DNA from: a virus
IMG/VR virus record: IMGVR_UViG_3300036861_000287
Span: 1 to 45,984 of that record
Strand: one strand, 5' to 3'
Length of the DNA: 45,984 bases
The position numbers and the translations under genes are program-made. Shown piece after piece: positions 7,752 to 41,547 of this stretch. The notes beneath the pieces are model-generated. The model had not been told where the DNA came from and ran no database searches. It worked only from the letters and a program-made list of their open reading frames with translations. Position 1 is the stretch's first letter; every line of letters begins with the position of its first letter.

Positions 7752-8392
7752 GCCCTGCCTCCTTCGATGACCTTGAGTCCATGCAGGGCACGGTCGAGCT
7801 GGTCGAGCCAGTCCCGCATCTGATGGGTGAGTGACTCGACGGCATAGCGGTCGCTCTCGTCGGTGAGGGCCTCGCCGAGCGCGTCGGTGTCTAGCGGCAG
7901 CAGGTCGCGGGTGAAGGCGCGGCAGCCGGCGTGGAAGTCCCGGAGCAGCCGGGCGCGGGCGATGGAGCCGTCATCAACCTGGCCGGCCATCTGGTCAAGC
8001 CGCTCGTTTTCGTCCGCAGGCTCTGTCCATTCCTGGACAGGCTCGGCGGGAGGTGCTTCCTCGACCTCTGCTTCCTCTGGTTCCTCTGTCCATTCCTGGA
8101 CAAGCTCGGGCTTGCGATCTTCTGCGACCTGGCTCTTGCTGATGCCTAGTACGTCTGCCGTCTCGCGGGTGGTAAGCCCCTCGGCTGTCAATTCGGCAAC
8201 GGCCTCACGGCGCTCAGGAACGGACAAGCGCACATAGCCGCCAAGCCGCTGTTCGACCCATTCCCGGGTCGAGAGACCCAGCGCATCTGGCACACCAAGC
8301 CGCTCGGCCAGGAGAATCTGGCGCCAAGCGCCAGCGGTGATCTGGCCGAGGGCCTGGGTGTACTCCTCAGCGTCGGCAGCATTGATCATCAT
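7748..8392 (-). CDS. HTH DNA-binding protein with VQEWTE repeats
   Basis: 214 residues. An HTH lies at about residues 62-90 (LTAEGLTTRETADVLGISKS), close to ParB-like or sigma region-4 type helices that read DNA. It is followed by two copies of a VQEWTE motif 21 residues apart in an acidic linker, then a helical C-terminal domain. Start at the ATGATG overlapping the Cro-like gene's stop. Likely the second gene of the lytic operon and a regulator or replication or partition factor. The DNA encoding the VQEWTE repeats is palindromic (see the repeat entries). Confidence 0.6.
   Translation of the reverse strand: MMINAADAEEYTQALGQITAGAWRQILLAERLGVPDALGLSTREWVEQRLGGYVRLSVPERREAVAELTAEGLTTRETADVLGISKSQVAEDRKPELVQEWTEEPEEAEVEEAPPAEPVQEWTEPADENERLDQMAGQVDDGSIARARLLRDFHAGCRAFTRDLLPLDTDALGEALTDESDRYAVESLTHQMRDWLDQLDRALHGLKVIEGGRA
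8024..8039. repeat. 16-bp palindrome, copy 1
   Basis: TGTCCATTCCTGGACA: perfect 6-bp arms around TTCC. An identical copy lies at 8087-8102, 63 bp away, and the surrounding 27 bases match except one. Both copies encode VQEW within an HTH protein. It may be simply a coding duplication or a binding site for the protein itself. Confidence 0.7.
8087..8102. repeat. 16-bp palindrome, copy 2
   Basis: Identical to 8024-8039. The spacing of 63 bp is six helical turns of 10.5 bp, which would place both sites on the same DNA face if they are bound. Confidence 0.7.
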
Positions 8393-8610
8393 CGCGCTGC
8401 GGCCTCCGGCTCCGGCTCGGCCACCAGCTCGCCCGGCTCGACCTGGAGCGCGCGGGCGTAGAGCCGCAGCGACGCGAGATCCTTCGGTTCGCGCTGGCCC
8501 GTCTCCCACCGCTGGATGACGTCCTCTCCGACGCCGCAGAGTTGGCCGACCTGCTTGAGCGTCAGCTTCAGGTCCTTGCGTCGCCGTCTGGCGAGGGGGG
8601 CATTCAGCAC
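8389..8610 (-). CDS. Cro/CI-type HTH regulator (Cro candidate)
   Basis: 73 residues with a complete HTH_3 (lambda-repressor-like) domain at about 15-62: LTLKQVGQLCGVGEDVIQRW, then a short acidic tail. It is the first gene of the leftward operon, directly divergent from the repressor candidate. By analogy with other temperate phages it would bind the shared operators and favour lytic growth. The ATG follows its promoter by about 45 bases. Confidence 0.75.
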   Translation of the reverse strand: MLNAPLARRRRKDLKLTLKQVGQLCGVGEDVIQRWETGQREPKDLASLRLYARALQVEPGELVAEPEPEAAAR

Positions 8611-8651
8611 GGTGGTGGTACTCCCTTCAAGCCAGCGAGTAGGTTCCTGGG

Positions 8652-8680
8652 ACGCTACGCCGGGCTTGGCGCCGTGTCAA
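8652..8680 (-). promoter_or_regulatory. leftward early promoter
   Basis: On the minus strand, TTGACA (8680-8675), a 17-base spacer, then TAGCGT (8657-8652). This is a near-consensus actinobacterial housekeeping promoter and would drive the Cro-like gene and the long minus-strand operon. A CTTGGC site lies in its spacer. Confidence 0.7.
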
Positions 8681-8682
8681 TA
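8664..8682. promoter_or_regulatory. operator candidate O3 in the leftward promoter
   Basis: GCTTGGCGCCGTGTCAATA shares CTTGGC and the downstream CAA with the 19-bp site at 8715-8733. It lies between the -35 and -10 of the leftward promoter, where a bound repressor would block it. Confidence 0.5.
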
Positions 8683-8711
8683 CCGTGATGAAGTTGCCCC
8701 ACTATCCCCCC

Positions 8712-8741
8712 TTGACTTGGCACGTGGGCAAGTTCTAGGGT
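8712..8741 (+). promoter_or_regulatory. rightward repressor promoter
   Basis: TTGACT (8712-8717), 18 bases, TAGGGT (8736-8741), a typical actinobacterial pair. It points at the repressor candidate at 8791, whose ATG has GGAGGAG at 8772-8778. The -35 box overlaps a palindromic operator candidate. Confidence 0.7.
8715..8733. promoter_or_regulatory. operator candidate O1, 19-bp palindrome
   Basis: ACTTGGCACGTGGGCAAGT has matching ACTTG/CAAGT arms around nine bases and covers the -35 box and spacer of the rightward promoter. The size fits a dimeric HTH repressor. Confidence 0.55.
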
Positions 8742-8757
8742 TGTCCCAATGCCAAGT
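8741..8757. promoter_or_regulatory. operator candidate O2
   Basis: On the minus strand it reads ACTTGGCATTGGGACAA, matching the first eight bases of O1. It lies around the expected transcription start of the rightward promoter. The TGCCAAGT arm (8750-8757) is the exact inverse of 8715-8722. Confidence 0.5.
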
Positions 8758-8790
8758 AACCGCCGGTCTGGGGAGGAGTAGGGACCTACC

Positions 8791-9333
8791 ATGGAAGAGA
8801 CCTTCGCGGACCTCATCGACCGCAAGGCGCGAGACGCCGGCCTGAACGACTACCAGCTATCTGCCGCGATCGGGCTGCTACCCGACAACAAGGTGTTCAG
8901 TCCCAAGCAGGTCAACCGGGTGCGCATGGGCGAACAACGACTCATCCCGGCCGCTGTGCTCTGGCGGTTGGTTGAGGTGCTCGACCTCGACCCGGCCCTG
9001 GCATGGAAGAAGGCGCTGGAGGCGATCGACTTCTGGCCGAAGAACTTGACGGCTGAACAGCTGCGGATGGTCACGCGCCCCGCGGTGCCGGCGCTCGCGG
9101 CGGCGAGCGCAACCTCCCGGCGCCGCCGCAGTGACCGTCCCGTTCGTGTGCAGGGCAAACGCACTCAGGACCAGTTGTATGCATACCCCTGGCCAGCCAG
9201 TATGCCCGAGCAAACGCACAAGGCGCCCTTTGTTCGTTCGCCCAGGTCAAACGTCATCTCAGGTCACCGGCCCGCGCTCACCATCATCGCAGGTGAGAAG
9301 GACCAGGGCGAAACCGGACAGGAGGCAGCATGA
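8791..9333 (+). CDS. immunity repressor candidate (HTH protein)
   Basis: 180 residues. The N-terminal 75 form a helical DNA-binding candidate (FADLIDRKARDAGLNDYQLS then FSPKQVNRVRMGEQRLIP), reminiscent of lambda-type HTH domains. The C-terminal half is basic (ATSRRRRSDRPVRVQGKRT) and disordered, without the S24 peptidase domain that LexA-like repressors carry. Divergent position from the Cro-like gene and the shared operators make it the best lysogeny repressor. Its stop overlaps the next ATG. Confidence 0.6.
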   Translation: MEETFADLIDRKARDAGLNDYQLSAAIGLLPDNKVFSPKQVNRVRMGEQRLIPAAVLWRLVEVLDLDPALAWKKALEAIDFWPKNLTAEQLRMVTRPAVPALAAASATSRRRRSDRPVRVQGKRTQDQLYAYPWPASMPEQTHKAPFVRSPRSNVISGHRPALTIIAGEKDQGETGQEAA

Positions 9334-23502: not shown

Positions 23503-24534
23503 TTACTGCTCCTTCCGGTCGAGCAGCTCCATCAGCCGCTTCGCGTGGTTGGTGAACGTCCGATCGGCGACGGCTTCGCGTGCCTTGCCGGCCATCGCCT
23601 CGCGGACCCCGTCGTGGGCGAGGAACCACCGCACCTTGTCCGAGGCGTCGTCCGGGTCGGTGAAGGTGGGCAGCAGGAGAACCTCGTCGCCTTCCCCGCG
23701 TGGGTCGCGCAGGAAGAACAGCCCGCACGCGGCCATCTCGACCTCGCGGGGTCCCATGGCCCAGCCCTGCTGGAGTTCGGGGTGGGCGGCTTCGCGGCGG
23801 TACAGGTTGATGCCGACCTTCGCCGACCGATAGAGGGGGACGACGTCTTCGTTGTCCATGCACTCGTCGATGTCGTGCATCACGTGCTTCCGAAGCGGCG
23901 AGTCCTCCGGCAGGCGCATCCAGTTGCCGCCCAGCCGCACCTCCAGCCCCTCGAGGTCCATCGCCTCGAAGAACGCCTGCCGCGATGGGTAGCCGGTGCC
24001 GACGAACGCCAGGTCACACGCCAATTCTGGCACCGGCGGGCCGGGCGTGTGCAGGCTCGGCCGGTAGGCGTGCGGGATGTAGTCGGTGGGGCCGAGAGAA
24101 CGGAACCGGTCGATGTTGGTCGGGTCGTTCAGGAGGTTCAGGGTCGCGTGCGGGGCGAGGCCGAGCTGCCGGTCGTCCTCGTACGGGCTTTCGGTGTGCA
24201 GCAGGACAACTTGGGTGCCGGTCCGCATCGCATGCTTGAGCAGCTCGAAGTCGACGAAGAACGAACTGACCGACAACAGGATGTGGGGGCGGATCTTGAA
24301 CAGCGCCGCGGCGATGCCGTTGGTGGCCATCCCGATCGCCTGGTCGTCGGACAGGGCCTTGCGGTAGCCGCCTTCCCCATCGGGCAGGTAGGTGCTGTCA
24401 TAGAAGGCCAACCGGTCGTCGAGGTTGTACGGGAACACCATCAGGCCAAGCTCGCGGAGCGCCTCGATCCAACCAGTGTGGACGTCCGCAACACTGAAGT
24501 TGGGCCCCGGATGCACCACCAGGACACGCTTCAC
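23503..24534 (-). CDS. glycosyltransferase, GT-B / CgeB-like
   Basis: 343 residues. The N-terminal half (RVLVVHPGPNFSVADVHTGW) and the C-terminal half (CDLAFVGTGYPSRQAFFEAM, VGINLYRREAAHPE, REVEMAACGLFFLRD) match the Glyco_trans_1_2/CgeB pattern, including the Glu-rich acceptor loop. It transfers an activated sugar to an acceptor, unknown here. GTG start coupled by GTGA to the tail-terminator candidate and directly upstream of the major tail gene, so tail decoration is likely. Confidence 0.8.
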   Translation of the reverse strand: MKRVLVVHPGPNFSVADVHTGWIEALRELGLMVFPYNLDDRLAFYDSTYLPDGEGGYRKALSDDQAIGMATNGIAAALFKIRPHILLSVSSFFVDFELLKHAMRTGTQVVLLHTESPYEDDRQLGLAPHATLNLLNDPTNIDRFRSLGPTDYIPHAYRPSLHTPGPPVPELACDLAFVGTGYPSRQAFFEAMDLEGLEVRLGGNWMRLPEDSPLRKHVMHDIDECMDNEDVVPLYRSAKVGINLYRREAAHPELQQGWAMGPREVEMAACGLFFLRDPRGEGDEVLLLPTFTDPDDASDKVRWFLAHDGVREAMAGKAREAVADRTFTNHAKRLMELLDRKEQ

Positions 24535-25210: not shown

Positions 25211-25380
25211 CAGCCGCCACCTGCCGCCGGTGGCGCAAGCATGGCCTTTATCGCACAGCCGACGAGATAGAGGGCCTGCTGTTCAGTGAATCCGGCCTCT
25301 TGGTACGACAGGAACATCTCGTGTATCTGCGCGGCACCCTCTGCGAGCACGCTCATGGGATCTTGGAGGTCGTCGCTCAT
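25210..25380 (-). CDS. conserved small actinophage protein, 56 aa
   Basis: MSDDLQDPMSVLAEGAAQIH then EMFLSYQEAGFTEQQALYLV: a short helical protein family often seen next to head-tail connectors in actinophages. The ATG overlaps the connector gene's stop; its stop shares a base with the next ATG. Function unknown. Confidence 0.65.
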   Translation of the reverse strand: MSDDLQDPMSVLAEGAAQIHEMFLSYQEAGFTEQQALYLVGCAIKAMLAPPAAGGG

Positions 25381-26255
25381 GCGAACGACAGCAGCTTCTT
25401 GTAGGGGCCGACAAGCTCCTGGTACTTGCCGTTGGTGCGGACCCGCGAGATGCCCAGGTCAGCGACGCCGAACACACCGAACTTGGTGTCCTTCAGCGCG
25501 AACAGTTCGGCGGCGGCGATCTCGCAGGCCTCGCGGATGTCGTCGGGCACGGCCGGCCAGCCCCACGTCCCGGTGACCTCGACGAGGTTGGCGCGGGCGC
25601 CGCCAAAACTCGGGTAGGGGAACAGCAGCCCCCCGACCGCTTTGATCTGGGTGTAGGGGCGGGGTTGGGGGCCGGCGTTGACGTTGGGGGTTCCGTCGGC
25701 GCAGAGCAGCTGGTAGTCGCCGGTCGTCCACGCCTGCTCGAACGTCCCGTCGCCGGCCGCGTCGGTCTTCAGGGTGGTGACGGACACGAGGTCGTTGTAG
25801 GCGCCGAGCTCCAGGGACCATGTGTCGGTCGGGGTGAACGTGCGCGCCTCGGTGATCTTCCAGAAGTGCCGCTGGCAGTCGGAGTCGATCATCCGGGTCG
25901 CGACGCGGATCTTGCTGTCGATGCTGGCGTGGTCCTGCGTCTTGGCCGACGGGATCGACAGGCGGCCTTTGACTTCCTCGCGGCTGGTGTAGACACGGGC
26001 GTTGGCGGCCGCGACGACGTAGAAGCTGCCTTCTTCGGCGTCGGTGACCGCGCCGGTGGCGACGAACCGGTACAGCCAGGTGCCAGCCAGGGTCGCGGCC
26101 TGGTTGTGGGTGTAGGTCACCGCCGGCGGTGCGCCGCCCGCGGTTGGGGTCGGGGTCGTGACCGCGCCGGCCGGGTCGGTGATCGTGAGGGCGACCGTCG
26201 CGGTGGCGCTGATCGTGTAGACCAGCGGGACCGCGTCGCCGATGTTGTAGTCCAT
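25377..26255 (-). CDS. head-tail connector (HK97 gp6-like adaptor) with N-terminal Ig-like domain
   Basis: 292 residues. The first about 85 residues are an Ig-like beta domain (VPLVYTISATATVALTITDP). The rest follows the adaptor pattern YTSREEVKGRLSIPSAKTQD, then SKIRVATRMIDSDCQRHFW and a C-terminal helical part. It would bind the portal after packaging. The N-terminal domain is an extra piece that could contact cells or glycans. Confidence 0.7.
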   Translation of the reverse strand: MDYNIGDAVPLVYTISATATVALTITDPAGAVTTPTPTAGGAPPAVTYTHNQAATLAGTWLYRFVATGAVTDAEEGSFYVVAAANARVYTSREEVKGRLSIPSAKTQDHASIDSKIRVATRMIDSDCQRHFWKITEARTFTPTDTWSLELGAYNDLVSVTTLKTDAAGDGTFEQAWTTGDYQLLCADGTPNVNAGPQPRPYTQIKAVGGLLFPYPSFGGARANLVEVTGTWGWPAVPDDIREACEIAAAELFALKDTKFGVFGVADLGISRVRTNGKYQELVGPYKKLLSFA

Positions 26256-27331
26256 CAGCCGATGGTCACCTCCCCATCTGTAGGCTCAACGATGACCGAC
26301 CCCGTAGTGCCGCCGGTGACGGCGTGCCCGGATGGCTGGCCGGCCTGGACATTGCCGCTGGTCGCGTCGGCCCGGGCCGTCCCGGCGGTCCGGCCGGCGT
26401 AGGCGTACCCGGGCGGCCGGCTTGGGGTGAACTCCGGCGGTGCGACCTGCGGCCACGGCGGGCTGAACTGCCGGCCTCGGCGCAGCCGTGCGGCGAACCG
26501 GGGCCGCGCGCCTGCCTGCCCTCTGAACGGCGGCCGCCAGACCGTCTGCGGGCCCTGCGGCCACGGCGGCTCGGTGAACCCTTGGCGGCACCGCAGCCAC
26601 GGCGTCGGACGGGCGCGGCGCAGGAACGCCGGGACCCCAGCGGGCCGGGCCGGCGGTGTCCAGGCGAACTGGCCGCGGCGGGCGGCCCCGGCCCACCGTG
26701 CCCTGGAACTGATGGGCTCGGGTGGCCAGACCGACGGCGCGGCAGCGACCTGCGGCCAGGGTGGGTCGAACCGGCCACCCCGTCGGGTCGGCCGGCCGGC
26801 GAGGCGGCTTGCCTGCTGGACCGGGTCGGGCCGCCAGACGCTCGGCTGGACGGCGACAGGCGGCCAGGGTGGTTCGTGGAAGGCGCCGCGGCGGGCGCTG
26901 ACGGGCTTCTGCCGGGCGCGGACCCATCCCGGCAGGGTGGTGGCCGCGGGCACAACAGCCGGCAGGGGGCCGTAGAAGCGGCCTCTGCGGGCCAGCAGCA
27001 GCCGGTTGCATGCACCGGCCTGTTCGCCGAACGCTGGCGGGGGGAGCCGCAGCGGCGGGACCGCGAAGAACCCGCGACGGCGGGCAAGCGCCGCCCGGCG
27101 CGAGCTCCGGCCACCGAACGTCGGCGGCCAGGTCGGCGCGGCCGGGACGATGGCCGCCCACGGTGGTTCGTGGAACGCGCCGCGCCGCGGGGCTGGCCGA
27201 CCGCGGGGTCGGCTGCCAGCCTGTTCGGTGAACGCGGGCGGGTAGGAAGGCGCCGCCGGCGCAACCGGGGCCGGTGGGACCTGGAAGAACTTGCTGCGGC
27301 GTGGCCAGGCGCCGCGCCAGCGCCGCAGCAT
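26255..27331 (-). CDS. basic nine-repeat RRG/PPW protein
   Basis: 358 residues built from nine imperfect units of about 30-38 residues. The core is RRGxFxEPPWPxV followed by Pro-rich spacers ending in an Arg pair; examples are RRGAFHEPPWAAIVPAAP and RRGGRFDPPWPQVAAAPS. The last 50 residues switch to a Gly/Thr/Ala repeat (GTARADATSGNVQAGQPSGH). Strongly basic, probably nucleic-acid or capsid-interior binding. Not an expected structural family; I do not recognise it. Lies between the connector and a secreted collagen-like protein. Confidence 0.7.
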   Translation of the reverse strand: MLRRWRGAWPRRSKFFQVPPAPVAPAAPSYPPAFTEQAGSRPRGRPAPRRGAFHEPPWAAIVPAAPTWPPTFGGRSSRRAALARRRGFFAVPPLRLPPPAFGEQAGACNRLLLARRGRFYGPLPAVVPAATTLPGWVRARQKPVSARRGAFHEPPWPPVAVQPSVWRPDPVQQASRLAGRPTRRGGRFDPPWPQVAAAPSVWPPEPISSRARWAGAARRGQFAWTPPARPAGVPAFLRRARPTPWLRCRQGFTEPPWPQGPQTVWRPPFRGQAGARPRFAARLRRGRQFSPPWPQVAPPEFTPSRPPGYAYAGRTAGTARADATSGNVQAGQPSGHAVTGGTTGSVIVEPTDGEVTIG

Positions 27332-27339
27332 GGGCTACC

Positions 27340-27819
27340 TCAATTCACGATGGCGCAAATCGCAGTGGCATCTGCGGTCGCGATATCGCCGGCGCCATTG
27401 TCGAAACCAACATAGGAGATGATGGCCTTGCCATTCCCATCCAGGGCCAGATCAAGCCTCGTCATCGCCTTGGGTGGATCGCTTACACCTCCGCTCCAGA
27501 TCACGCTCTTACCGGCTGGGCAAGCCACAGTGAGGATCAAGTCGCCACTGGTGAATGGTCCTGCATAATGCCGGAACACATACTGGTAGCCGGAGATGCC
27601 AGGCGTGCCCTGCGGCCCCGGCGGACCGGTCTGGCTCCAGTTCAGCGCTGTGTAGCCGCTCGGGCAACTCGCCGCCGAGTCGATCGTAATCAGCGCGCCG
27701 GTGTTGTTCTTGTAGCAGCCGTGGATTGTGCCGTCCGGGCCAGGGATCGAGGCATAAGCGATGCCGCCGAGTAGGAGCAAGGCAGCGATCCCAGCAGCGA
27801 GCAGCGCGCACCGTCTCAT
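27340..27819 (-). CDS. exported protein with short collagen-like stretch
   Basis: 159 residues. Signal peptide MRRCALLAAGIAALLLLGGI, then IHGCYKNNTGALITID, CPSGYTALNWSQTGPPGPQG and a beta-rich C-terminal half. The module of HGCY..., CPSG... then Gly-X-Y is typical of secreted proteins in soil actinobacteria. Inside the head gene region it may be host-derived or an externally displayed virion protein. Overlaps the gene upstream by ATGA. Confidence 0.65.
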   Translation of the reverse strand: MRRCALLAAGIAALLLLGGIAYASIPGPDGTIHGCYKNNTGALITIDSAASCPSGYTALNWSQTGPPGPQGTPGISGYQYVFRHYAGPFTSGDLILTVACPAGKSVIWSGGVSDPPKAMTRLDLALDGNGKAIISYVGFDNGAGDIATADATAICAIVN

Positions 27820-28313
27820 TCCTCGTGCTCCACGGCAAGCGTGTACTTGTGGCTGGTAGGAAGCGCGTTGTCAAGGTTGATGAATGCGATCCCGTTGGCG
27901 ACGCCGATCGCACAGATCATCTCTTCCAGCAGCTCGAACGGCAGGTCGACACCGCTCTGGCTGTTGAAGGTCACCTGGTACAGGTAGGGCGGCGTCCAAG
28001 TCGCGGTCGGCACAGCCGACCAGGCGGTGTCCAGGCCGGTGATCGCCGCCGCGGGGGAACCGGGGTCCAGCTTGGTCGGCGTCAGCGTGGTGGTCGCGGT
28101 ACCGCGGGCGGTGGTGCGGACGAAACCGACGGAGACCTGCTGCGAGCTCGGCGCGGCAGCACCGGCGATCACGCCGAGGGTGACGCGCCGCAGCTTGTAC
28201 CCGGCCGTCGCCGAGGCGTTCAGATTGGCGAACAGGGCGTTGGCGGTGCCGCCGGTCGGCGCAGTCGCCACGATCGCCGCGGCTGACTCGATGTTGGTGG
28301 CGAAGCGGGCCAT
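27816..28313 (-). CDS. putative virion surface / decoration protein
   Basis: 165 residues, beta-rich and Thr/Ala-rich (VGFVRTTARGTATTTLTPTK, YQVTFNSQSGVDLPFELLEE). Located in the run of candidate surface proteins between the glycosylation cassette and the connector genes. Probably displayed on the capsid, but without sequence-level proof. Confidence 0.5.
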   Translation of the reverse strand: MARFATNIESAAAIVATAPTGGTANALFANLNASATAGYKLRRVTLGVIAGAAAPSSQQVSVGFVRTTARGTATTTLTPTKLDPGSPAAAITGLDTAWSAVPTATWTPPYLYQVTFNSQSGVDLPFELLEEMICAIGVANGIAFINLDNALPTSHKYTLAVEHEE

Positions 28314-28346: not shown

Positions 28347-29108
28347 CTAGAAATAACCCCCATACTGGCTTTCCACAGCTGGGACGTAGGCGGCTGCGCC
28401 GACGACCGCGATCGCGCCCTTGAGCTCGAACGCGCAGATGTTGCCGCGTTCGGCGACGCCGGCGCGGTTGATCGAGATCGTGACCGGACTGAACGGATTG
28501 GTCGCTGCCGACCTCCGGGCCGAGCAGCCGCCGCCGCCGGGAGGAATGGTCGACTGGTTGATGATGACCGTGCCGCCGCCGTCACCCGACGATGCGCTGG
28601 TATTGTCCCAGTTCGACAGGCCACCCAGCACCCACGAGTTGGGATGCTGCGTGGTGATCGCCAGCGTCCGCGGGTCCGCCGAGCTGAGCGCGAACGACGC
28701 CTCGCTGGTCGCGCCGATCGGGCTGGTGGCATCGTGGCCGGTCCATTCCTCGACCGCGCCGCCGTGGTCATCCGCGATCGAGGCGGTGAACGTGACCGTC
28801 CGCGACGCCGGGCTCGCGCCGATCAGCTGGTAGGACGCCTGCCAGCCGGACCGTTCCCCGCCTTCGGTGAAGTCGCGGCCGACGATCGGCGTCCAGGTGC
28901 CGCCCAGCGAGTCGGTGACCACATCGCGGGTGTCGGTGCTGGTCCACGACCAGGTGATCAGGATCGAGTTCGCCGCCGGGGTGAAGCTGGAGGTCGTGAT
29001 CACCTGGGTGCTGCCCGAGACGGTCGCGCGGGTGGTGGAGAAGACCGGGGCGGTGCGGCCGAGCCAGGTCGGGCTGAAGAGGAACTCAGCGAGGGGGACG
29101 AGCGCCAT
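28347..29108 (-). CDS. beta-sandwich surface protein candidate, 253 aa
   Basis: Many Ig-like strands (STQVITTSSFTPAANSILIT, RTVTFTASIADDHGGAVEEW) and Ser/Thr-rich loops. No known motif. Encoded just before the exported and decoration proteins, so likely part of the virion exterior. Confidence 0.5.
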   Translation of the reverse strand: MALVPLAEFLFSPTWLGRTAPVFSTTRATVSGSTQVITTSSFTPAANSILITWSWTSTDTRDVVTDSLGGTWTPIVGRDFTEGGERSGWQASYQLIGASPASRTVTFTASIADDHGGAVEEWTGHDATSPIGATSEASFALSSADPRTLAITTQHPNSWVLGGLSNWDNTSASSGDGGGTVIINQSTIPPGGGGCSARRSAATNPFSPVTISINRAGVAERGNICAFELKGAIAVVGAAAYVPAVESQYGGYF

Positions 29109-31859: not shown

Positions 31860-32828
31860 CTACAGAAGAGACTGGTAGGCGCGTTCCCACTGCTGCCAGT
31901 TGCGCTGGATCGTGAACGCTCGGGCGTGCTCGCGGGCCTTGGCGCCCATCTCGGTACGCATCGCCTCGTCGTTGGCCAACTGGTACAGCCGCCGGCCCCA
32001 CTCGTGCTCGTGGCGGACCAGGAACCCGGTCACCCCGTCCAGGACGAAGTCGCGGTACGCGGTCGCGTCGGAGGCGACGACAGGGATCCCGAGCGCGGCC
32101 ATCTCCAGCACCGGGATGTGACTCTTGGACTCCGCGAACGTCGTCGGGTACAGCGGGACGACGGCGATGTCGAAGTCGACGCTGCGGTAGAAGTCCCAGA
32201 TGTCATCGGACCAGTCGGTCCACCGCGCCCGGCCCTTGACGGTCTCGCGGAAGTCGGTCCCAACGATGTGGAACTCGACCTTGGGGTTACGCGCCAGGAA
32301 CCGGCGCAGCTGCCCGGCCACCATCGCCAGGTCCCGCCCGTGCGACGCGCCGCCACGCCACCCGACGACCAGCCGGTCCCTGCGCGGCCGCTCGAGCTCC
32401 AGGAGTCCCTCGTCGACGTAGTTGGGCAGCACCATCACCCGGTCGTGGCCGGCTTCGCGGCGGAACACCTCCGCCAGCGGCTGCGTGGAGACGGTGACGA
32501 GATCGGCGGCCTGCGCGACGAACGTGGCCACCTCGCGGGGAACGGGGCTGCGGTAGGTCCGCCACGCGAGGAAGTTGGCCGGGTCGACCGCGAACACGTC
32601 GTCGTCGACCTCGTACACGAGCCGGTGGCGGGCCTTCCACCTACGCCACGACGGGAGCGCCTCGGTCTTGTCGAACCGTTCCGCGACGATCAGATCCTCG
32701 TCGCCGTCGGGTTGCCGGTCGCCGTAGTTGGCCAGCATCTGGTGGCCGTGGCCAGCGAGTTGGGCGAACGGCTGGAGCACCCGGTAGGTGCCGCACGCCG
32801 AGTTGTCATGGAACCCTAAGACCTTCAT
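31860..32828 (-). CDS. glycosyltransferase, GT4-like (GT-B)
   Basis: 322 residues. The C-terminal half carries the GT4 EX7E-type signature: Glu233 and Glu242 with GIPVVAS after them, plus VVGWRGGASHG and HIVGTDFRETV. The N-terminal half contains YEVDDDVFAVDP. It would transfer an activated sugar to an acceptor. It overlaps the GT2-type gene by 23 bases, so the two are co-expressed. Confidence 0.85.
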   Translation of the reverse strand: MKVLGFHDNSACGTYRVLQPFAQLAGHGHQMLANYGDRQPDGDEDLIVAERFDKTEALPSWRRWKARHRLVYEVDDDVFAVDPANFLAWRTYRSPVPREVATFVAQAADLVTVSTQPLAEVFRREAGHDRVMVLPNYVDEGLLELERPRRDRLVVGWRGGASHGRDLAMVAGQLRRFLARNPKVEFHIVGTDFRETVKGRARWTDWSDDIWDFYRSVDFDIAVVPLYPTTFAESKSHIPVLEMAALGIPVVASDATAYRDFVLDGVTGFLVRHEHEWGRRLYQLANDEAMRTEMGAKAREHARAFTIQRNWQQWERAYQSLL

Positions 32829-33552
32829 TGGCGACCGCGCCGAGGGGGGTGTAGGCCGAGAGTCTGGTGAACCGGTGCACGACCAGGGGCTCGGGGATCG
32901 GGGGGACCATCCCGGCGACGCTGCCGAGCTTGTCGAGGAAGATCCCGTCGGAGTGGTAGCAGGTCTGCGGCGCTTCCGGCAGCCACGGGTCGCCAATCTC
33001 GTCCAGCAACTTGGTGCGCCACATCACCTGCGCGCCGTCCACCCGGCAGTCCATCGACGCGCCATACTTGATCTCGCTGGCGGGCCGGTGCGCGACCAGG
33101 ACCTCCGTGCCGTCCGGTTCCAGCCGCGCGAGCAGCTCCGAGCACCAGACCGCGCCAGTCTTGGGATGGGTGTCGAGGTAGCCGGCCATCCGTTCCATGA
33201 ACGACGGCAGGTACCGGTCGTCATCATAGAAGGTGCACATGTACCGGCCGCGGACCAGACCCTGCCGGATGGCGTTGTTGGTCGCCAGCGCCACCGGACA
33301 CGCCGTCAGCTTCAGGTCCGGACCCTCGTCGGTGAATGTCCACTCGACCAGCGGGTGCTTGGCGTAGTCGCGATGGATCCGTGCCATCAGTTTCGACTCG
33401 CGGCCGGACCCGCCGCGCCACCGGCCCGAGTCGATCACCAGGATGTGGATATCCCGCCGGGTCTGGTGGATGACGCTCTCGAGCGCGTCGCGGAGGTAGG
33501 GCTTCATATGGGCGGTGAGAAGGCAGGTGACCGCCGGGCCGGGGGCAGTCAC
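32806..33552 (-). CDS. glycosyltransferase, GT2-like (GT-A)
   Basis: 248 residues. VTCLLTAHMKPYLRDALESV and ILVIDSGRWRGG form the nucleotide-binding half; FYDDDRYLPSF at about 108-118 is the DxD motif that holds the metal and nucleotide sugar; WCSELLARLE and MDCRVDGAQVMWRTKLL complete the acceptor side. GTG start coupled to the preceding gene. One of the two transferases that could act on the sugar made by the neighbouring enzymes. Confidence 0.85.
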   Translation of the reverse strand: MTAPGPAVTCLLTAHMKPYLRDALESVIHQTRRDIHILVIDSGRWRGGSGRESKLMARIHRDYAKHPLVEWTFTDEGPDLKLTACPVALATNNAIRQGLVRGRYMCTFYDDDRYLPSFMERMAGYLDTHPKTGAVWCSELLARLEPDGTEVLVAHRPASEIKYGASMDCRVDGAQVMWRTKLLDEIGDPWLPEAPQTCYHSDGIFLDKLGSVAGMVPPIPEPLVVHRFTRLSAYTPLGAVANEGLRVP

Positions 33553-33809
33553 CCTTCTATCCGCTCATACCGGACGCCCTTGACGCCGCTGCGGAGTTCG
33601 ACGGGGTGGCCGAGCATCACCATCCCGTCCCCGGAGAGATATGGCAGGATGTCAGCAGGCGGGGGGAACAGACGCCGCAGCATCCGCCACATTTCGGCGT
33701 CCATGACCCAGCGGCACTGCCCCCGTTCGGGGAGTGGAACCGAGTACATCTCCTCGAACAGGACCTTCATCACGAGGTCGCGGTCTTGCTGGTCGCTGAG
33801 CGCATTCAT
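33549..33809 (-). CDS. hypothetical protein within glycosylation cassette, 86 aa
   Basis: MNALSDQQDRDLVMKVLFEE... then DILPYLSGDGMVMLGHPVEL. Compact alpha/beta, no motif. ATGA and GTGA overlaps on both sides tie it to the sugar genes; it may assist a glycosyltransferase or be unrelated. Confidence 0.55.
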   Translation of the reverse strand: MNALSDQQDRDLVMKVLFEEMYSVPLPERGQCRWVMDAEMWRMLRRLFPPPADILPYLSGDGMVMLGHPVELRSGVKGVRYERIEG

Positions 33810-34759
33810 GCCGCTAGGGCTTGCAGGTCGTGGGCGACCAGCCGCTCGACGACCCCACGGAACCGGACATTGGCCTGCCAGCCAAGCTGTTTCGCCGCGT
33901 ACATCGCGTTGCCCTGTAGGTGGTCAACGTCGGCGGGTCGCTGCAGGTCCACGTCGAAGTACACGTGGTCATCCCAGTCCAGATCAGCTTCGGCGAACGC
34001 GACCTCGCACAACTCCTGCACGGTGTGCGTCTGGCCGGTGGCGAGGACGTAATCGCCGGGGGTGTCCTGGTTGGCGATCAGCGGCAGGGCCTGGACGTAT
34101 TCGGGGGCCCAGCCCCAGTCACGGCGGGCGGTGAGGTTCCCCAGGGCTAGCCGCTGCTGCTCGCCGCGGGCGATCCGCGCGACCGCGCGGGTGATCTTGC
34201 GGGTGACGAACTCCTCCCCGCGCCGCGGGCTCTCGTGGTTGAACATGATCGCCGTCGACGCGTGCAGCCCGTACGACTCGCGGTAGTTCACGGTCGTGTG
34301 GTGCGCGAACGCCTTTGCGACCCCGTACGGGGAGCGGGGCCGGAACGGCGTCGATTCGTTCTGCGGCGCGGGTGCGGCGCCGAACATCTCCGACGAGCTC
34401 GCCTGCACAACGCGGATGGCGGGGTCGACCTGCCGGATCGCCTCCAGCAGCCGCAGGACGCCGAGACCGGTGACCTCCGTCATCAGGGTCGGCTGCTGCC
34501 AGCTCATGCCGACGAACGTGACCGCGCCGAGGTTGAACACCACATCCGGCTTCGCCGCCTGGAGGGCGTCGACCAGGGACGATTGGTCGAGCAGGTCGCC
34601 GTCCAGGAGCTGGAGGGAAGGCACCAGCTGCTTGATCCATCCGCGTTTCGGGTTCGCCTGCCCGCGGACCAATCCGAAGACCTGGTGGCCGTCGGCGTCG
34701 AGCTGTTCGGCGAGGTAGCTGCCGTCCTGGCCCGTGATTCCGGTGATGAGCGCCCTCAT
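33806..34759 (-). CDS. gmd: GDP-mannose 4,6-dehydratase
   Basis: 317 residues, an extended short-chain dehydrogenase. Residues 7-18 are GITGQDGSYLAE (NADP site of Gmd), 121-124 SSSE and 145-149 YGVAK (catalytic Tyr145 and Lys149). NESTPFRPRSPYGVAKAFAH is the typical Gmd block. It converts GDP-mannose to GDP-4-keto-6-deoxymannose, the entry to many deoxysugars. Length is near the bacterial norm. The ATG overlaps the previous stop. Confidence 0.9.
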   Translation of the reverse strand: MRALITGITGQDGSYLAEQLDADGHQVFGLVRGQANPKRGWIKQLVPSLQLLDGDLLDQSSLVDALQAAKPDVVFNLGAVTFVGMSWQQPTLMTEVTGLGVLRLLEAIRQVDPAIRVVQASSSEMFGAAPAPQNESTPFRPRSPYGVAKAFAHHTTVNYRESYGLHASTAIMFNHESPRRGEEFVTRKITRAVARIARGEQQRLALGNLTARRDWGWAPEYVQALPLIANQDTPGDYVLATGQTHTVQELCEVAFAEADLDWDDHVYFDVDLQRPADVDHLQGNAMYAAKQLGWQANVRFRGVVERLVAHDLQALAA

Positions 34760-34995
34760 GGGTAGTTCACCGGCTCGCCATAGTCGGCGATGGTTACTTC
34801 GCCCGTGACGTAGTTCTTTGTAAACGTCGGCGAGATCGTCTTGCCTTCAAGGTCCGCCGGGGCGTTGTCGTCCTCGAACTCGACCAGATGCATCTTATGG
34901 CGATCCGGTTCACCGATGGCGACCAGCCGCATCCCGCGCGGCAAGGCCAGGACAGACAGCAGTTCACCTGCCACGGGCACCCGATAGCGCGTCAC
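34756..34995 (-). CDS. hypothetical protein within glycosylation cassette, 79 aa
   Basis: GTG start coupled by GTGA (product MTRYRVPVAGELLSVLALPR). A beta-rich fold, with KMHLVEFEDDNAPADL and FTKNYVTGEVTI. No family recognised. Lies between the methyltransferase and Gmd and is translated with them. Confidence 0.55.
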   Translation of the reverse strand: MTRYRVPVAGELLSVLALPRGMRLVAIGEPDRHKMHLVEFEDDNAPADLEGKTISPTFTKNYVTGEVTIADYGEPVNYP

Positions 34996-36191
34996 AGCAG
35001 CACCGGAACCGGGATCGGGACCAGCAGCCGCGTCCCGTGCTCGAGGGCGACCCGCTCGCGCTTGAGCACCCCGGGGAGGTAGTTCCAGGCCAGCAGCAGC
35101 CACACGTCCGGCGGGACACCCTGCGGCTCAACGATCGGGATCCGCATCCCCGGCGAGTACCGGCCGATCTTCGCCGGGGTGGTGTCCTCGATCCACGGCA
35201 GGGTCGGGCGGCCGATCCCGCACCAGTTCAGCAGCGTGGTCGACTTCGCCGTCGCGCCATACCCGGCGATCGTCACCCCAGGCTGGAGGGTCTCGTCGAG
35301 CAGGTCGAGGAGGCGGGCCCGGAGGTACTCGGCGCGAGCCTGGACGGAGCGGTAGGTGTCAAGTTCAGCCACCACGCCGACCTCGCCACGTATGTGCACC
35401 CGAGCCCGGTTGCCACCATGGCGCAGGACGACGCGGATGCTGCCACCCTGCGCCGGCACATGCTCGACCTCCTCAACCTGCAGGCCGTGCTTCCAGCAGA
35501 CACCCGAGAGTGTCCGCAGGGAGAAGTAGAACCGGTGCTCATGGTAGACGTGGTCGAACTGGTTGCCGAGCAGCAGATCCGGCAGGTACTGCACCTCCAC
35601 CACCGCGACGCCGTCGGGGGCGAGCAGATCGGCGATCCCGCCGAAGAAGCCGTCGAGGTCGGCGACGTGCGCGGCGACGTTCCGCGCGATGATGAGTCCG
35701 GCCTGGCCGTGTGTGTCCTTGACCTTCTCAGCGACGGCACGGCCGAACGGCTCGACGTAGCGGTCCAGCAGCCACGCGAACGTCTGCAGCATCGGCCCTT
35801 CCGCCGGATCGACCCCGACAATCCGGCCACCGGTCGTGTAAAGGAAATGGCGCAGCAAGTCACCGTCGTTGCAGCCGATCTCGACCGTCAGCCGCTTCGC
35901 CTGGTCCGGGTAAACGGCCAGCAGGTCCGCCGCGAGCTGCTCGTGTTCGGCGACCTTCGATGGTGACGCGCCCGAGTAGAACCCGTAATCCTCCCCGAAC
36001 AGCTGGTCGTCGGGTACGACCTCCAGCAGTTGCACCAGCCAGCACGACCGGCACACCGCCAGCTCAAGCGGGAACGTCGGCTCCGGCTCGTCCGGGGTCA
36101 CGGGGAACCGATCGGCCAGGGGGGTCTTGCCGAGGTCGAGGAAGGTTTCGAGCTGGTCGGCGCCGCAGCCGCCGCAGACCTCACGGCGCAT
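34992..36191 (-). CDS. sugar C-methyltransferase (NovU / TylC3-like)
   Basis: 399 residues with the three parts of this family. An N-terminal zinc domain has Cys6, Cys9, Cys47 and Cys50. The SAM domain has VEIGCNDGDLL (104-113) and the catalytic-site block YHEHRFYFS (216-224). The C-terminal domain has IAGYGATAKSTTLLN. Relatives add a methyl carbon, usually at C-3 of a 4-keto-6-deoxy sugar nucleotide. With Gmd next door, a GDP-linked C-methylated deoxysugar is the likely product. Confidence 0.85.
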   Translation of the reverse strand: MRREVCGGCGADQLETFLDLGKTPLADRFPVTPDEPEPTFPLELAVCRSCWLVQLLEVVPDDQLFGEDYGFYSGASPSKVAEHEQLAADLLAVYPDQAKRLTVEIGCNDGDLLRHFLYTTGGRIVGVDPAEGPMLQTFAWLLDRYVEPFGRAVAEKVKDTHGQAGLIIARNVAAHVADLDGFFGGIADLLAPDGVAVVEVQYLPDLLLGNQFDHVYHEHRFYFSLRTLSGVCWKHGLQVEEVEHVPAQGGSIRVVLRHGGNRARVHIRGEVGVVAELDTYRSVQARAEYLRARLLDLLDETLQPGVTIAGYGATAKSTTLLNWCGIGRPTLPWIEDTTPAKIGRYSPGMRIPIVEPQGVPPDVWLLLAWNYLPGVLKRERVALEHGTRLLVPIPVPVLL

Positions 36192-36533: not shown

Positions 36534-37784
36534 CTAGGTGAGGGCCCCCACGTAGGTCTTGATCGAGCCGGTCAGGTCGACCAGCGCACCGTCGCCCCGG
36601 AGGATCGCCCGGTACGACACCAGGTCGGTCCCGAACGCGAAGTCGTCCGACCGTTCGAACCGGACCCCGCCGGCCATCCGCACGAAGAACGTGGAGAAGT
36701 CCCCGAACGCGACCATGCGGCCGCCGGTGACGATGGCGGGCATGAACGGGTCGCTCGCGATGGGCTTGCCGAGCAGCAGATCGGGCGCGCCGAGCTGCAT
36801 GCTCGGCTGCCAGATCGGCTGGCCGGTGGTGTCCTTGATCTTCCGCAGGGCACCCACGACCGCGTCGCGCATCAGCCAGAAGCACGACCGCGAGGACCGG
36901 TACGGCGCGATCACCGAGTACTGCAGGTCGACGAGGTCGTCGTAGACGGGCCGGCCGTTGACGCCGGTCGTGGTGCCGGTGACGGAGTTGGACGCGGAGG
37001 TGAGCAGACCGGCCGGCTTGGACGCACCGGTGCCGGTGATGAGGTCGGCGCCGAACCGGTTGCCGATCTCACGCCCGGCCGACTGCGACAGGTAGCCCGC
37101 CAGGTCGACGCCGGTGTCCTCCACCAGCTCGCGGGCGACCTGGCCCTGCCACGCGTACTTGAACGCGCCGAGGGTGGTCATGCCGAACGCCGGGTCGCCA
37201 GACGGCAACGTGCCGGTCTGGGCGGTGAGCGCACCGGCCGGGTGGGTGGTCGTCTTGGGGATCTGCAGCGGCTCCCCACCGGAGGTGTTCAGCACCGTCG
37301 GGTTGGTCTGCAGGATCCCGCTGGTCTCGATGAGGTGCTGGACCAGCTGGTCGTAGAACGACGTCGGGACGGTGTTGCCGCCGGCGGCGGTCAGGTTGGT
37401 CACCAGGGTCCGGTAGCTGACCGGCTGCCCCGGGGTCGCCCTGATGTCGAGGTACTTGGGGCTGCCGGCGTCGCCGCGGAGGAACGCGCGGAGCTCGGCG
37501 TCGCCCGGGACGGTCGACGGCGCGCCGCCCTTGCCCTTGTCGGCCGGCTGACCGTGGATGCGGTTGAACTGGTCGTCGGCGTCCTTGGCGCGCTGGTCCT
37601 GCTCCAGGACGGCCTTGATGCGCTTGTCGAGCTCGTCGAGCTCGCCGTTCAGCGCCTCCCAGGTGCCCTGCTCTTCCGCGCTCATCGCGCGGTTCTCGTC
37701 GGCGGCCTTCCCAGCGATCTCCTTGGCCTGTTCCCAGACGTTCAGGCGCCGGTCGCGCAGCCGCTTGGCCACTTCGTTGGCCAT
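36534..37784 (-). CDS. major capsid protein, HK97 fold
   Basis: 416 residues. A coiled-coil delta domain (about 1-80) with a charged, Gly-rich linker precedes the HK97 core, from about 105 to the end: TLVTNLTAAGGNTVPTSFYD, GMTTLGAFKYAWQGQVAREL, FRMAGGVRFER-type elements near the C-terminus. The delta domain is probably removed by the protease upstream. Forms the head shell and is a possible glycosylation target because the sugar cassette follows. Confidence 0.85.
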   Translation of the reverse strand: MANEVAKRLRDRRLNVWEQAKEIAGKAADENRAMSAEEQGTWEALNGELDELDKRIKAVLEQDQRAKDADDQFNRIHGQPADKGKGGAPSTVPGDAELRAFLRGDAGSPKYLDIRATPGQPVSYRTLVTNLTAAGGNTVPTSFYDQLVQHLIETSGILQTNPTVLNTSGGEPLQIPKTTTHPAGALTAQTGTLPSGDPAFGMTTLGAFKYAWQGQVARELVEDTGVDLAGYLSQSAGREIGNRFGADLITGTGASKPAGLLTSASNSVTGTTTGVNGRPVYDDLVDLQYSVIAPYRSSRSCFWLMRDAVVGALRKIKDTTGQPIWQPSMQLGAPDLLLGKPIASDPFMPAIVTGGRMVAFGDFSTFFVRMAGGVRFERSDDFAFGTDLVSYRAILRGDGALVDLTGSIKTYVGALT

Positions 37785-37963: not shown

Positions 37964-38644
37964 CTACTCCCCGATGGAGGGGTCTTCCTTGCGGGCCAGC
38001 AGCGCGGTCAACGCGGCGGCGCCGTAGACGGGCTGCCGCTGCTTGACGGGCGCGCCCGCGTCGGTCTTGACGAAGAAGCGGCGCAGCTCGTTGGCCTCGG
38101 CGAGCTTGCGGACCTCGTCGAAGTCCGCCTCGAACTTGGTCGCCAGCGCGCGCAACCCGGCGGTGGTGTCCATGTACGCGGGGGCGTTGACGGGGGCGAC
38201 GTCGACGAGTTGGACGCTGACCAGGGTGCGGCGCGGGAAGCCCTGGTCGGTCAGGTCCCAGTCGTCCCCGTCGGGCATCATCCGGAACGCGAAGCTCGAC
38301 TTGCGGACGTCGCCGCGTTCGACGAGCTCGACGATGTCGCTGCGGGACTTGGGCGGCTCAACGTCGTACAGCAGCCCGGTGTTGTCGAGCTCCAGCCGCA
38401 GCGTCCCCGCGGCGCTGGTGCCGAGCAGCTGGTTGTCGTCGTGGTTGTAGCGGGCCAGCACCTCCGGCCAGCCGTCCCCGCGGGACTTGTTGAACGCGCC
38501 CGGGTCGACCTGCTCGACGAACCCGCCGAGGTTCTGCGACAGCCGGTTGAACACGGCCGCGTACCCGCCGATCCGCGGCTTGTCGCCGCGGGCGCGCAGC
38601 TCGACGGCCACGAAGGTGTAGCGCCGCTCAACGGCTGCGCTCAT
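37964..38644 (-). CDS. HK97-type prohead protease
   Basis: 226 residues. The fold signature includes GGYAAVFNRLSQ, His68 (YNHDDN), and Ser116/117 (RKSSFAFRM), the S78/U35-type catalytic layout. It cleaves capsid delta domains and then itself. The C-terminal 60 residues are a helical, Lys-rich tail. Directly upstream of the capsid gene. Confidence 0.85.
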   Translation of the reverse strand: MSAAVERRYTFVAVELRARGDKPRIGGYAAVFNRLSQNLGGFVEQVDPGAFNKSRGDGWPEVLARYNHDDNQLLGTSAAGTLRLELDNTGLLYDVEPPKSRSDIVELVERGDVRKSSFAFRMMPDGDDWDLTDQGFPRRTLVSVQLVDVAPVNAPAYMDTTAGLRALATKFEADFDEVRKLAEANELRRFFVKTDAGAPVKQRQPVYGAAALTALLARKEDPSIGE

Positions 38645-38692: not shown

Positions 38693-39922
38693 CTAGCGCC
38701 GCTGCGGCAGCGGGATGACGTCGCCGTCGCCCTCGCCCTGGTCGCCCTGGTCGCCGCCGCCCGCGGCTGGCTTGGCGAGCGGGGCGTAGTCCTTGCCTTC
38801 GCCGTTGGGCAGCGGCTCCAGGTCCTCGAGCTCGCGGAGCTCGTCGATGTTCCGCAGGCCGATCTTCCGCGCGATCTCATACACCCGGTAGCGGGTCAGC
38901 AGGTCGGTCCGCACGACCGCGTCCATCGCGAACTTCACGTACTGCCGTTCGGGCAGCAGCTGGTAGAACTTCGCCTCCAGCTTCGTGCACCACGGCCGCA
39001 CCGCATCCGTCTGCGTGGCGATCTGGTTCAGTTCGACCGTGTTGTACGTCAGCGGCCCGCCGGCCTGGCCGCCGATCTTCTCCGGCGGGACGCCGTAGAT
39101 CCCCGCGATCTGGGTCGCGCCGAGCTGCTGGCTCTCGATGAACTTCGCCTCGTACGGGGCGATCTCCAGCGGCGTGTAACTCCAGTCCTTCCCATGCACC
39201 AGCGGCCGCCGCCGACGGATCGACTTGACCAGCCGACCTGAGATCTCTTCCGCCTGCTCGTCGGTGATCGTCAGCGCCTCGTTCTTGAACGTCCCCGGCG
39301 GCACCCCACCCGCCGCATACCAGTCGCGGGAGAAGTCCTGCGCGCCGAGGGCGGCCTGGACGACCTGCGCGTACGCGGCCATCGGCGACAGCCCCCAGAT
39401 CTTCCCCGGGACGGGGAACCACGGGATGTGCACCACGTCCTCGGTTGGGACCTGCCGGCCCTGATACCACCAGACCGGCCGCGCGATCGACGCCTGCGGG
39501 GGCTGGTCGTCCACATACCAGTCGTCCGGGTTGGTCCACTCGACCCCGATGGGGAACCCGAACCCGTCACGCTGGGTGACCATGCCGACCGCGTTCCCAC
39601 GGCTCGCCATGCTGATGACGGGGCGGAACAGCCAGTCGACCAGCGTGCCCTGCGCGGCGGGCTGCTGGAACAGGGCCGGCAGCGACGCCATCCGCTGCCG
39701 GCGGTCCCCGAGGTCGCGGTAGGCATGCAGCGGCAGGGTCGCAATCTGGTCGCCCAAATAGCGCCACGCGCCGAACACCGCACCGAACGACGCGGCCCGG
39801 TCGAACGACACGGCAGCCGCGCCAGGTGGGTCGCCGACGTTCCATGGCAGCCCGGTGATCGCGCGCTGTTCCTCGCCGCCGCCGCGGTTGCGGTTCCACA
39901 CCAGACGGTCGAACCAACTCAA
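38693..39922 (-). CDS. portal protein, HK97 type
   Basis: 409 residues, MSWFDRLVWNRNRGGGEEQR... with the phage portal core (FGAVFGAWRYLGDQIATLPL, SPMAAYAQVVQAAL, EKIGGQAGGPLTYNTVELNQ) and a C-terminal disordered part (GDQGDQGEGDGDVIPLPQ). Forms the 12-subunit DNA channel. ATGA overlap with terminase. A 48-base gap to the protease shows nothing. Confidence 0.85.
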   Translation of the reverse strand: MSWFDRLVWNRNRGGGEEQRAITGLPWNVGDPPGAAAVSFDRAASFGAVFGAWRYLGDQIATLPLHAYRDLGDRRQRMASLPALFQQPAAQGTLVDWLFRPVISMASRGNAVGMVTQRDGFGFPIGVEWTNPDDWYVDDQPPQASIARPVWWYQGRQVPTEDVVHIPWFPVPGKIWGLSPMAAYAQVVQAALGAQDFSRDWYAAGGVPPGTFKNEALTITDEQAEEISGRLVKSIRRRRPLVHGKDWSYTPLEIAPYEAKFIESQQLGATQIAGIYGVPPEKIGGQAGGPLTYNTVELNQIATQTDAVRPWCTKLEAKFYQLLPERQYVKFAMDAVVRTDLLTRYRVYEIARKIGLRNIDELRELEDLEPLPNGEGKDYAPLAKPAAGGGDQGDQGEGDGDVIPLPQRR

Positions 39923-41547
39923 CGCACACTCTCCAGCGGGTCGTAGTCGTCGTCAACCGGCATCATCGCCGCAGCATCAAGGGCAAGGACCGCGCCGATC
40001 CCCGCGTCGATCTTCCGGCCATCCGGTCCCTTGACGAACACGAACTTGGTACGCCCGTCGTCGTCGTCGTCGCGGACGCGGACCTTCCGCTTGTGCATCG
40101 CCAGCACGTGCTCGCTCAACACCGTCGAGCCGTCATGGGACAGCGCGCCCTCGGCGATGGCGATCGAGAACCGGTCGCAGGCCTTCCACATGCGGGTCGC
40201 CTGGTTGGTGTCGAAGACCAGCACCCGTTCCTCGCCGTACAGCTCGGCCCAGTCCTCGATCTCGGTCGCCCACTTGGCCGGGTCACAGTTCTCCAGCCCA
40301 ACCCGCCAGTAGTCAAACGCCTCCTGTTGTCGGGCCCGCACGTCCCGTCGGGGGATCCGCCAGCCGCGGGGGGCATCCTTGGGTCGCTGCCACACCTCGA
40401 TCTCGAACAGGTGCGGCTTCCCGTCAACCATCGTGCAGCCGATCAGCGCCGTGCAGTCGTCCGAGATGGATCCGTCGAACCCGGCCCCGATATAGGCACC
40501 TGCTGGTACAACGATGTCCGGCCGGGCCAACTCAGCCCAGCGTGCCACCTCAACGGCCTTGTGGCGGTCGTCGCGGTTGTGGTTGAAGAAGTACCGCTCG
40601 GAATCTTCCCAGGTCGTCTCCGGGTCGCGGATCTCCAGGACCAGCCGGTCGAGGTCAACCCAGCCGCCCCGTTCCATCGCCGAGTCGCCATAGGGGACGG
40701 TGAGAGCCTGCCGGAGCGTCGGGTCCGGGTCGGTTTCGGTGACCTCGGGGGCTTCAACGGCGTCGTAGAACAACCCGGCGGCACCCTCGAGGGACGCCTT
40801 GTGCGTGCCCTCGGCGACGGAGTTCTCGCCCGGTGCGTAGCTGTTGGTCGTCTCGTAGCTGCGGCCCCGCATCTTGGCGACGTTGCGGCGCAGCGTCCGC
40901 GCGAGCTTCAGGCCGCCGTTGGCGGGCGTCCAAAGGTGCGTCTCGTCCAGAACCGCATAGGTGACCCGCTGGCCCTCGCGGGTACCGGCCGCCGCGCTCA
41001 CCGGCTCAAGCTTGCCGCGGCGGCCCTTCAGGAAGCACCGTGTCAGGCCGTGGTCGATGCCGAGCTCATCGGCGGCGTGGCCGTTGTTGGCCGACAGGAA
41101 CTCATACAGCGCCGAATAGGTGTTGTCGGCCTGGTCCTCGCTGACGGCGGCGATCTGCACCCAGGCGGGCGGATCGCCCATCGTCCCCCACGGCCGCCCG
41201 ACCGGCTCCCCCCGGGCATTCCAGCCGGCGAACCGCACCGGCCCCGCCAGCTCAGCGAGCGCCTTGGCGGCCTCCAGCGGTGACTTGCCCCAGCCCTTGC
41301 TGCGGCGGCTGCAGCCGCGGCGGTAGATGAACCTGCCCGCCAAATCAACCGCGTACCAGCGGACCAGCAGCGTCGCCTGCTCGGGCGTGAGGACGAACGG
41401 CTGCGACGGGTCAGTGGGCGACGGCAGGGCGTCCGAGAGCCAATCCAGCAGGTCCCAGCCGAGCGAGGGGAGCCTATCCGAGGTCGGCGACGGTGAGGCC
41501 GACGTAGCGGCTGGCCCTGGTGCTCTCGCGCTGGCCGGCGACTTCAT
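39919..41547 (-). CDS. terminase large subunit
   Basis: 542 residues. The ATPase has a Walker A-like SRRSKGWGKS (80-89) and Walker B VTYAVLDET (195-203); the nuclease half has GAGFDGSISDD with Asp358 and RVLVFDTNQATRMW. The start at 41547 overlaps the small terminase by 74 bases; no start codon exists after that. It pumps and cuts the DNA concatemer. Its start-region Ser/Pro stretch is probably disordered. Confidence 0.9.
   Translation of the reverse strand: MKSPASARAPGPAATSASPSPTSDRLPSLGWDLLDWLSDALPSPTDPSQPFVLTPEQATLLVRWYAVDLAGRFIYRRGCSRRSKGWGKSPLEAAKALAELAGPVRFAGWNARGEPVGRPWGTMGDPPAWVQIAAVSEDQADNTYSALYEFLSANNGHAADELGIDHGLTRCFLKGRRGKLEPVSAAAGTREGQRVTYAVLDETHLWTPANGGLKLARTLRRNVAKMRGRSYETTNSYAPGENSVAEGTHKASLEGAAGLFYDAVEAPEVTETDPDPTLRQALTVPYGDSAMERGGWVDLDRLVLEIRDPETTWEDSERYFFNHNRDDRHKAVEVARWAELARPDIVVPAGAYIGAGFDGSISDDCTALIGCTMVDGKPHLFEIEVWQRPKDAPRGWRIPRRDVRARQQEAFDYWRVGLENCDPAKWATEIEDWAELYGEERVLVFDTNQATRMWKACDRFSIAIAEGALSHDGSTVLSEHVLAMHKRKVRVRDDDDDGRTKFVFVKGPDGRKIDAGIGAVLALDAAAMMPVDDDYDPLESVR

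Follow-up and report, generated by a model that had tools for sequence, protein, structure and literature searches.

Analysis of the 45,984-base IMG/VR virus record IMGVR_UViG_3300036861_000287 (positions 1 to 45,984, hereafter the window) identified a gene encoding an arginine-rich repeat protein, the RRG-repeat protein, which is under purifying selection and lies in a conserved three-gene cassette. The cassette comprises, in this order, a C-terminally tagged protein, a predicted beta-sandwich protein that we named MARY after the start of its sequence, and the RRG-repeat protein, usually followed by a head-tail adaptor. We tentatively propose, as a reading that may well be right, that the RRG-repeat protein is a disordered, multivalent tether or organiser on the virion surface, serving displayed adhesive proteins and/or host attachment.

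The RRG-repeat protein and its family

The gene and the repeats within it were delineated as follows.

26255-27331, minus strand: RRG-repeat protein gene, 358 aa, pI 12 (open reading frame, translational coupling, AlphaFold)
26441-27319, minus strand: nine-unit repeat region, residues 5-297 (leave-out HMM)
27319-27260, minus strand: unit 1, residues 5-24 (leave-out HMM)
27196-27149, minus strand: unit 2, residues 46-61 (leave-out HMM)
27100-27053, minus strand: unit 3, residues 78-93 (leave-out HMM)
27004-26966, minus strand: unit 4, residues 110-122 (leave-out HMM)
26905-26852, minus strand: unit 5, residues 143-160 (leave-out HMM)
26797-26744, minus strand: unit 6, residues 179-196 (leave-out HMM)
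26698-26639, minus strand: unit 7, residues 212-231 (leave-out HMM)
26611-26549, minus strand: unit 8, residues 241-261 (leave-out HMM)
26494-26441, minus strand: unit 9, residues 280-297 (leave-out HMM)
26258-26398, minus strand: C-terminal Gly/Thr/Ala repeat, residues 312-358 (47 residues), about 10-aa periodicity (sequence)

The open reading frame starts with an ATG at 27331 that has a GAGG-type ribosome site upstream, and its TGA stop codon overlaps the ATG of the next gene (TGATG). GC content at the third codon position was 0.86, the highest among the three positions. In all ten close pairs of relatives tested, dN/dS was below 1 (0.25-0.47 in nine pairs and 0.74 in one), indicating that the gene is under purifying selection. 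As a preliminary description of this DNA had stated, the protein is very basic: it contains 52 Arg and 2 Lys against 4 Asp and 9 Glu, with a pI of about 12 and a net charge of +41.

A 20-position HMM, trained on 176 unit cores of the relatives and excluding the window protein, detected exactly nine units in the window protein with a total of 58.7 bits, while the best of 1,000 composition-preserving shuffles scored -16.2 bits and none contained more than 2 units. A regular expression for the core matched 9 times, compared with a mean of 0.48 and a maximum of 4 in the shuffled sequences. The nine-unit architecture noticed earlier was therefore recovered independently of the window protein, and together with purifying selection it supports the earlier impression that the periodicity is purposeful. 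The core then given, RRGxFxEPPWP, holds as a repeat and fails as a literal wording; the core is better generalised to RRGx(F/W)xxPP(W/x), and RRGxFxEPPW is found in only 2 of the 9 units. The distinct Gly/Thr/Ala repeat at the C-terminus was confirmed, and most relatives carry their own, lineage-specific version of this repeat of about 10 aa. Examples are TVTVDAYSAT, GTALLDDSTG and TGVLLTDGHT, which are possibly of a beta type.

AlphaFold modelling of the RRG-repeat protein returned practically no secondary structure (pLDDT 51, pTM 0.16). The protein is thus predicted to be disordered, consistent with a polyproline-rich extended chain; a defined fold was considered and dropped on account of the pLDDT value.

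No obvious family had been recognised for this protein at the outset, and Pfam, PHROGs (up to E=1) and NCBIfam (up to E=0.1) gave no match. A profile match to a known structural family, named in the preliminary description as a possible refutation, was not obtained; the only PDB matches were to an mRNA interferase (E=0.087 and 0.16) and were judged to be due to chance. Searches of cultured phages (INPHARED) by tblastn, using family or MARY queries with E limits from 0.1 to 10, detected no relative, a negative result that is weak for the RRG-repeat protein because BLAST masks low complexity and fair for MARY. No relative was found on plasmids.

The first relatives came from IMG/VR scans with the RRG-repeat protein and its alignments. 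MARY as the query led to 32 loci, of which 24 lay on contigs new to the analysis; directly downstream of MARY in these loci were more members of the family, recognisable by their N-terminal signature M(x)RRWR. A genome scan queried with the RRG-repeat protein itself returned nothing, and one with the folded neighbour MARY was successful. About 35 relatives were collected from IMG/VR contigs and five actinobacterial genomes. The family is defined by the N-terminal M(x)RRWR followed by a tandem array of RRGx(F/W)xxPP units, each about 35 aa long, and both features are present in the window protein. Its members are 164 to 732 aa long, with a pI of about 12 in nearly all, and contain 1-20 units (a single unit in the L041 fusion, 3 to 20 in the others) with a median spacing of 35 aa. 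Three members are modified by other domains: the L028 protein contains an inserted LamG lectin-fold domain (Laminin_G_3 PF13385, E=7e-9), the L002 protein contains an inserted globular domain of about 240 aa, and the L041 protein joins a single N-terminal RRWR unit to a minor tail protein (phrog_1885, E=5e-22). Judged from these sequence comparisons, the RRG-repeat protein represents a new family and is not an orphan. An apparently orphan low-complexity reading frame thereby becomes a family that is defined and can be searched for in phages of soil actinobacteria, hosts that are little studied.

The three-gene cassette and its C-terminal tag

In the window, MARY and the tagged protein are encoded beside the RRG-repeat gene. 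The neighbours reported in the preliminary description, a head-tail connector and an exported protein, correspond to the adaptor downstream and to the small protein with an export-like N-terminus upstream.

28347-29108, minus strand: tagged protein, PHROG 38872 (function unknown), ending in the tag PAVESQYGGYF (28350-28382)
27816-28313, minus strand: MARY protein, 165 aa, predicted beta sandwich (32-sequence alignment, AlphaFold)
27340-27819, minus strand: small protein with an export-like N-terminus (homologues in the same slot of L004, L005, L008 and L020)
25377-26255, minus strand: head-tail adaptor with an N-terminal Ig-like extension, directly downstream with the TGATG overlap (PHROG 442, E=1.4e-15)

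The two genes MARY and RRG-repeat were almost always found together, whichever was used as the query. MARY was present in 13/13 loci found through the RRG-repeat protein, and the RRG-repeat protein was encoded just after MARY in 25/29 loci found through MARY, a count that takes in two loci cut by the contig end (L032 and L037), one reduced gene (L028) and one fused gene (L041). These 25 loci include one in a genome found afterwards, which served as a fresh test of this linkage. Among the 29 MARY loci, the RRG-repeat gene was absent from L023, L025 and L042. In L039 its slot is occupied by an unrelated 620-aa repeat protein (7469-9328) with units like KAASVSAGGAVVR, and the tag and MARY are present.

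MARY was modelled by AlphaFold as a confident beta sandwich (pLDDT 85, pTM 0.82). It matched uncharacterised phage proteins, and comparison with the PDB gave no match below E 0.001. The small protein between MARY and the RRG-repeat protein, found in several phages (L004, L005, L008 and L020), carries the motif IPGPDGxIHGCYK. Reading frames resembling HNH or homing endonucleases were seen in or beside the cassette in L005 (2940-3650), L008 (869-1405) and L006 (3926-4525).

In most loci, the protein encoded directly upstream of MARY ends in the pattern PP.[IV]SQY.G[FR][FWY] or a close variant. Once the tag was removed, the tagged proteins split into 16 groups unrelated by BLAST, which argues that the tag is conserved in its own right. 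Of the 3,135 six-frame reading frames of the loci, 35 end in the pattern, all but two of them in the cassette, and DNA scans of IMG/VR with the tag as the only query returned four loci, each with the cassette (4/4). A strict or degenerate tag was found in 23/29 MARY loci; it was absent from L023, L025, L028, L041 and L042, and L027 was ambiguous. These tagless loci are mostly those in which the RRG-repeat gene is missing, reduced or fused, and some of them are related to each other. Distances between tags correlated with distances between RRG-repeat N-termini when MARY distances were allowed for (partial r=0.34; 0/2,000 permutations). Simple linkage does not readily account for this correlation, since MARY separates the tagged gene from the RRG-repeat gene; few independent evolutionary events may underlie it. 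The SQY tag could be a docking signal for virion surface proteins. An origin of the repeat units as tandem tag copies was rejected, as the tag position matrix gave the repeat proteins no higher scores than shuffles in nearly all members.

Several forms of the tag (SQYxGFF, SQYxGRW and SQYGSFH) were seen across L002-L060 on sequence-unrelated proteins of virion type. A second protein of about 60 aa, with a hydrophobic stretch and an SQY tag at its end, is encoded just upstream of MARY in L004 (4702-4893), L005 (2212-2400), L008 (130-303), L010 (6225-6392) and L020 (2907-3080). The tagged proteins of L005 (1406-2215) and L006 (1312-2142) have an RRG-like start (MPPRRGYLKPPARIIRRGSRLLR), as if the unit had moved by shuffling to another protein of the cassette.

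Cassette position and possible functions of the repeat protein

The structural genes upstream of the RRG-repeat gene in the window are listed below.

39919-41547: terminase
38693-39922: portal
37964-38644: head maturation protease
36534-37784: major head protein

The major head protein gene is followed by a block of sugar genes, surface-type genes, the RRG-repeat gene and the PHROG 442 adaptor gene, and then by the tail terminator, major tail protein and tape measure genes. In the window, L053 and L054, the major head protein and the head-tail adaptor flank the cassette; in L029 it comes directly behind the adaptor, in L041 behind the tape measure, and in L051 behind the tape measure and the tail proteins and ahead of the endolysin. 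Display on the virion exterior is the simplest explanation for a cassette found in both head and tail positions, and we infer from gene position that the exterior is the compartment common to all of them.

In this reading, tailed phages of actinobacteria would have a three-gene cassette for the virion surface, and the RRG-repeat gene product would be its disordered, multivalent member. It would form an extended, polyproline-rich thread with a 'sticker' (Arg-Arg-Gly, an aromatic residue and Pro-Pro) every ~35 residues, and its end would be a short repeat of about 10 aa that differs between lineages. Most likely placed outside the particle, either on the head close to the connector or, in certain phages, close to the tail tip, this chain could serve as a tether or organiser, flexible and polycationic, for the MARY beta sandwich and for SQY-tagged lectin- or Ig-like proteins, and/or could attach the particle to the actinobacterial surface, which is anionic and rich in glycans. 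Its presence in the virion (from gene position), its exterior placement and the binding target of its units are inferred. Some observations speak against such a role: nucleic acid could equally be a ligand of a disordered chain rich in Arg, the units are unlike the tag and their binding to it or to a common partner is putative, and the slot is filled by an unrelated repeat protein in one locus and empty in three.

A direct adhesin for anionic cell-wall polymers or host glycans is a possible, rather unlikely alternative, with MARY and the tagged proteins as separate adhesins that are merely co-regulated. The high Arg and Trp/Phe content, the disorder, the Gram-positive actinobacterial hosts, the lectin-fold insertion in L028 and the tail-region position in L051 and L041 are in agreement with this alternative, but the close association with MARY and the tag, in an unvarying gene order, points to a function that they share. 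It is conceivable, and on balance unlikely, that the cassette is a phage-encoded, scaffoldin-like display platform consisting of the RRG chain and MARY, on which swappable lectin- or Ig-like proteins dock via the 11-residue C-terminal tag. If so, the phage would swap surface adhesins and leave the capsid and tail unchanged, explaining how these phages exchange adhesive domains. The conserved tag could be a plug-in docking signal, and as a short peptide it is directly testable.

Two further roles appear improbable. As an assembly scaffold or chaperone, the protein would gather MARY and the tagged proteins and be absent or minor in the finished particle. A disordered multivalent chain, the fixed gene order and covariation with the tag would suit this function; recurrent lectin-like insertions and lineage-specific C-terminal repeats, on the other hand, look displayed. 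Equally doubtful is an internal head protein lining or condensing packaged DNA, as suggested in the preliminary description alongside binding to a surface. The pI of 12, the charge of the window protein and a location mostly between the major head protein and the adaptor are in favour of this role, which would confine the gene to the head module, away from tail and receptor-binding contexts. Capsid lining is nevertheless disfavoured by the tail-region cassettes of L051 and L041, the minor tail protein fusion, the LamG insertion and the surface-type neighbours, and the Trp/Pro-rich, Lys-poor composition also argues against it. Surface binding, the other suggestion, fits better and is plausible. 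Finally, GC-rich DNA opens many frames, and reading frames of similar length overlap the gene, but an artefact of this kind or a functionless low-complexity by-product has a negligible chance and is already refuted by the translational coupling, third-position GC, dN/dS and retention of the frame in a fixed position in about 35 phages and prophages.

The proposed surface tether was compared with known systems. A precedent is mycobacteriophage Douge, in which the major capsid, tail and baseplate proteins bear domains that bind glycans, including Ig-like domains of the major capsid and tail proteins, a central fibre and BppU (PMC13033339). Both systems would provide the virion surface of an actinobacterial siphophage with several adhesive domains for host glycans; the Douge domains are folded and belong to known structural proteins, and a disordered Arg/Pro/aromatic repeat chain is not reported, at least in the part of that study cited here (PMC13033339). 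Head decoration and head-fibre proteins resemble the family in that many members are encoded between the major head protein and the adaptor, with modular insertions and short lineage-specific repeats. Unlike them, the RRG-repeat protein is predicted to be disordered and matches no catalogued family, and its cassette can lie in the tail region as well. PHROG 1885 minor tail proteins are linked to the family by the RRWR unit fused to one of them in L041, whereas their domain was seen in no other member, including the window protein. Arg/Pro/Trp-rich cationic antimicrobial peptides have a similar mixture of residues and an extended conformation. The RRG-repeat protein differs from them as a long phage tandem repeat encoded in a structural operon, and the likeness is compositional only.

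Sugar genes and hosts

Sugar genes were found in the structural region of the window (33806-36191, 31860-32996 and 23503-24530), encoding a C-methyltransferase (PF08484), a nucleotide-sugar epimerase (PHROG 540) and glycosyltransferases. L054 has sugar-type genes between the head protein and the cassette (2429-4807). This arrangement points to glycosylated virions in this lineage. When the window sugar genes were compared with the cassette loci, only a glycosyltransferase was common, with L054 alone; glycosylation as a general feature of cassette loci was thus unsupported.

The genome scan with MARY identified loci resembling prophages in Acrocarpospora catenulata, Candidatus Frankia meridionalis, Planotetraspora sp. 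and a Micromonosporaceae MAG. A fifth genome, from a later survey, belongs to the same family as the Planotetraspora genome. The cassette is rarely carried (2/395 genomes class-wide, 1/351 and 3/343 in two families, counts that include genomes already known), and the RRG-repeat gene directly follows MARY in all five actinobacterial genomes. The window phage shares 66% identity in the major head protein and 57% in the glycosyltransferase with the Micromonosporaceae locus L054, so its host likely lies in or near the Micromonosporaceae.
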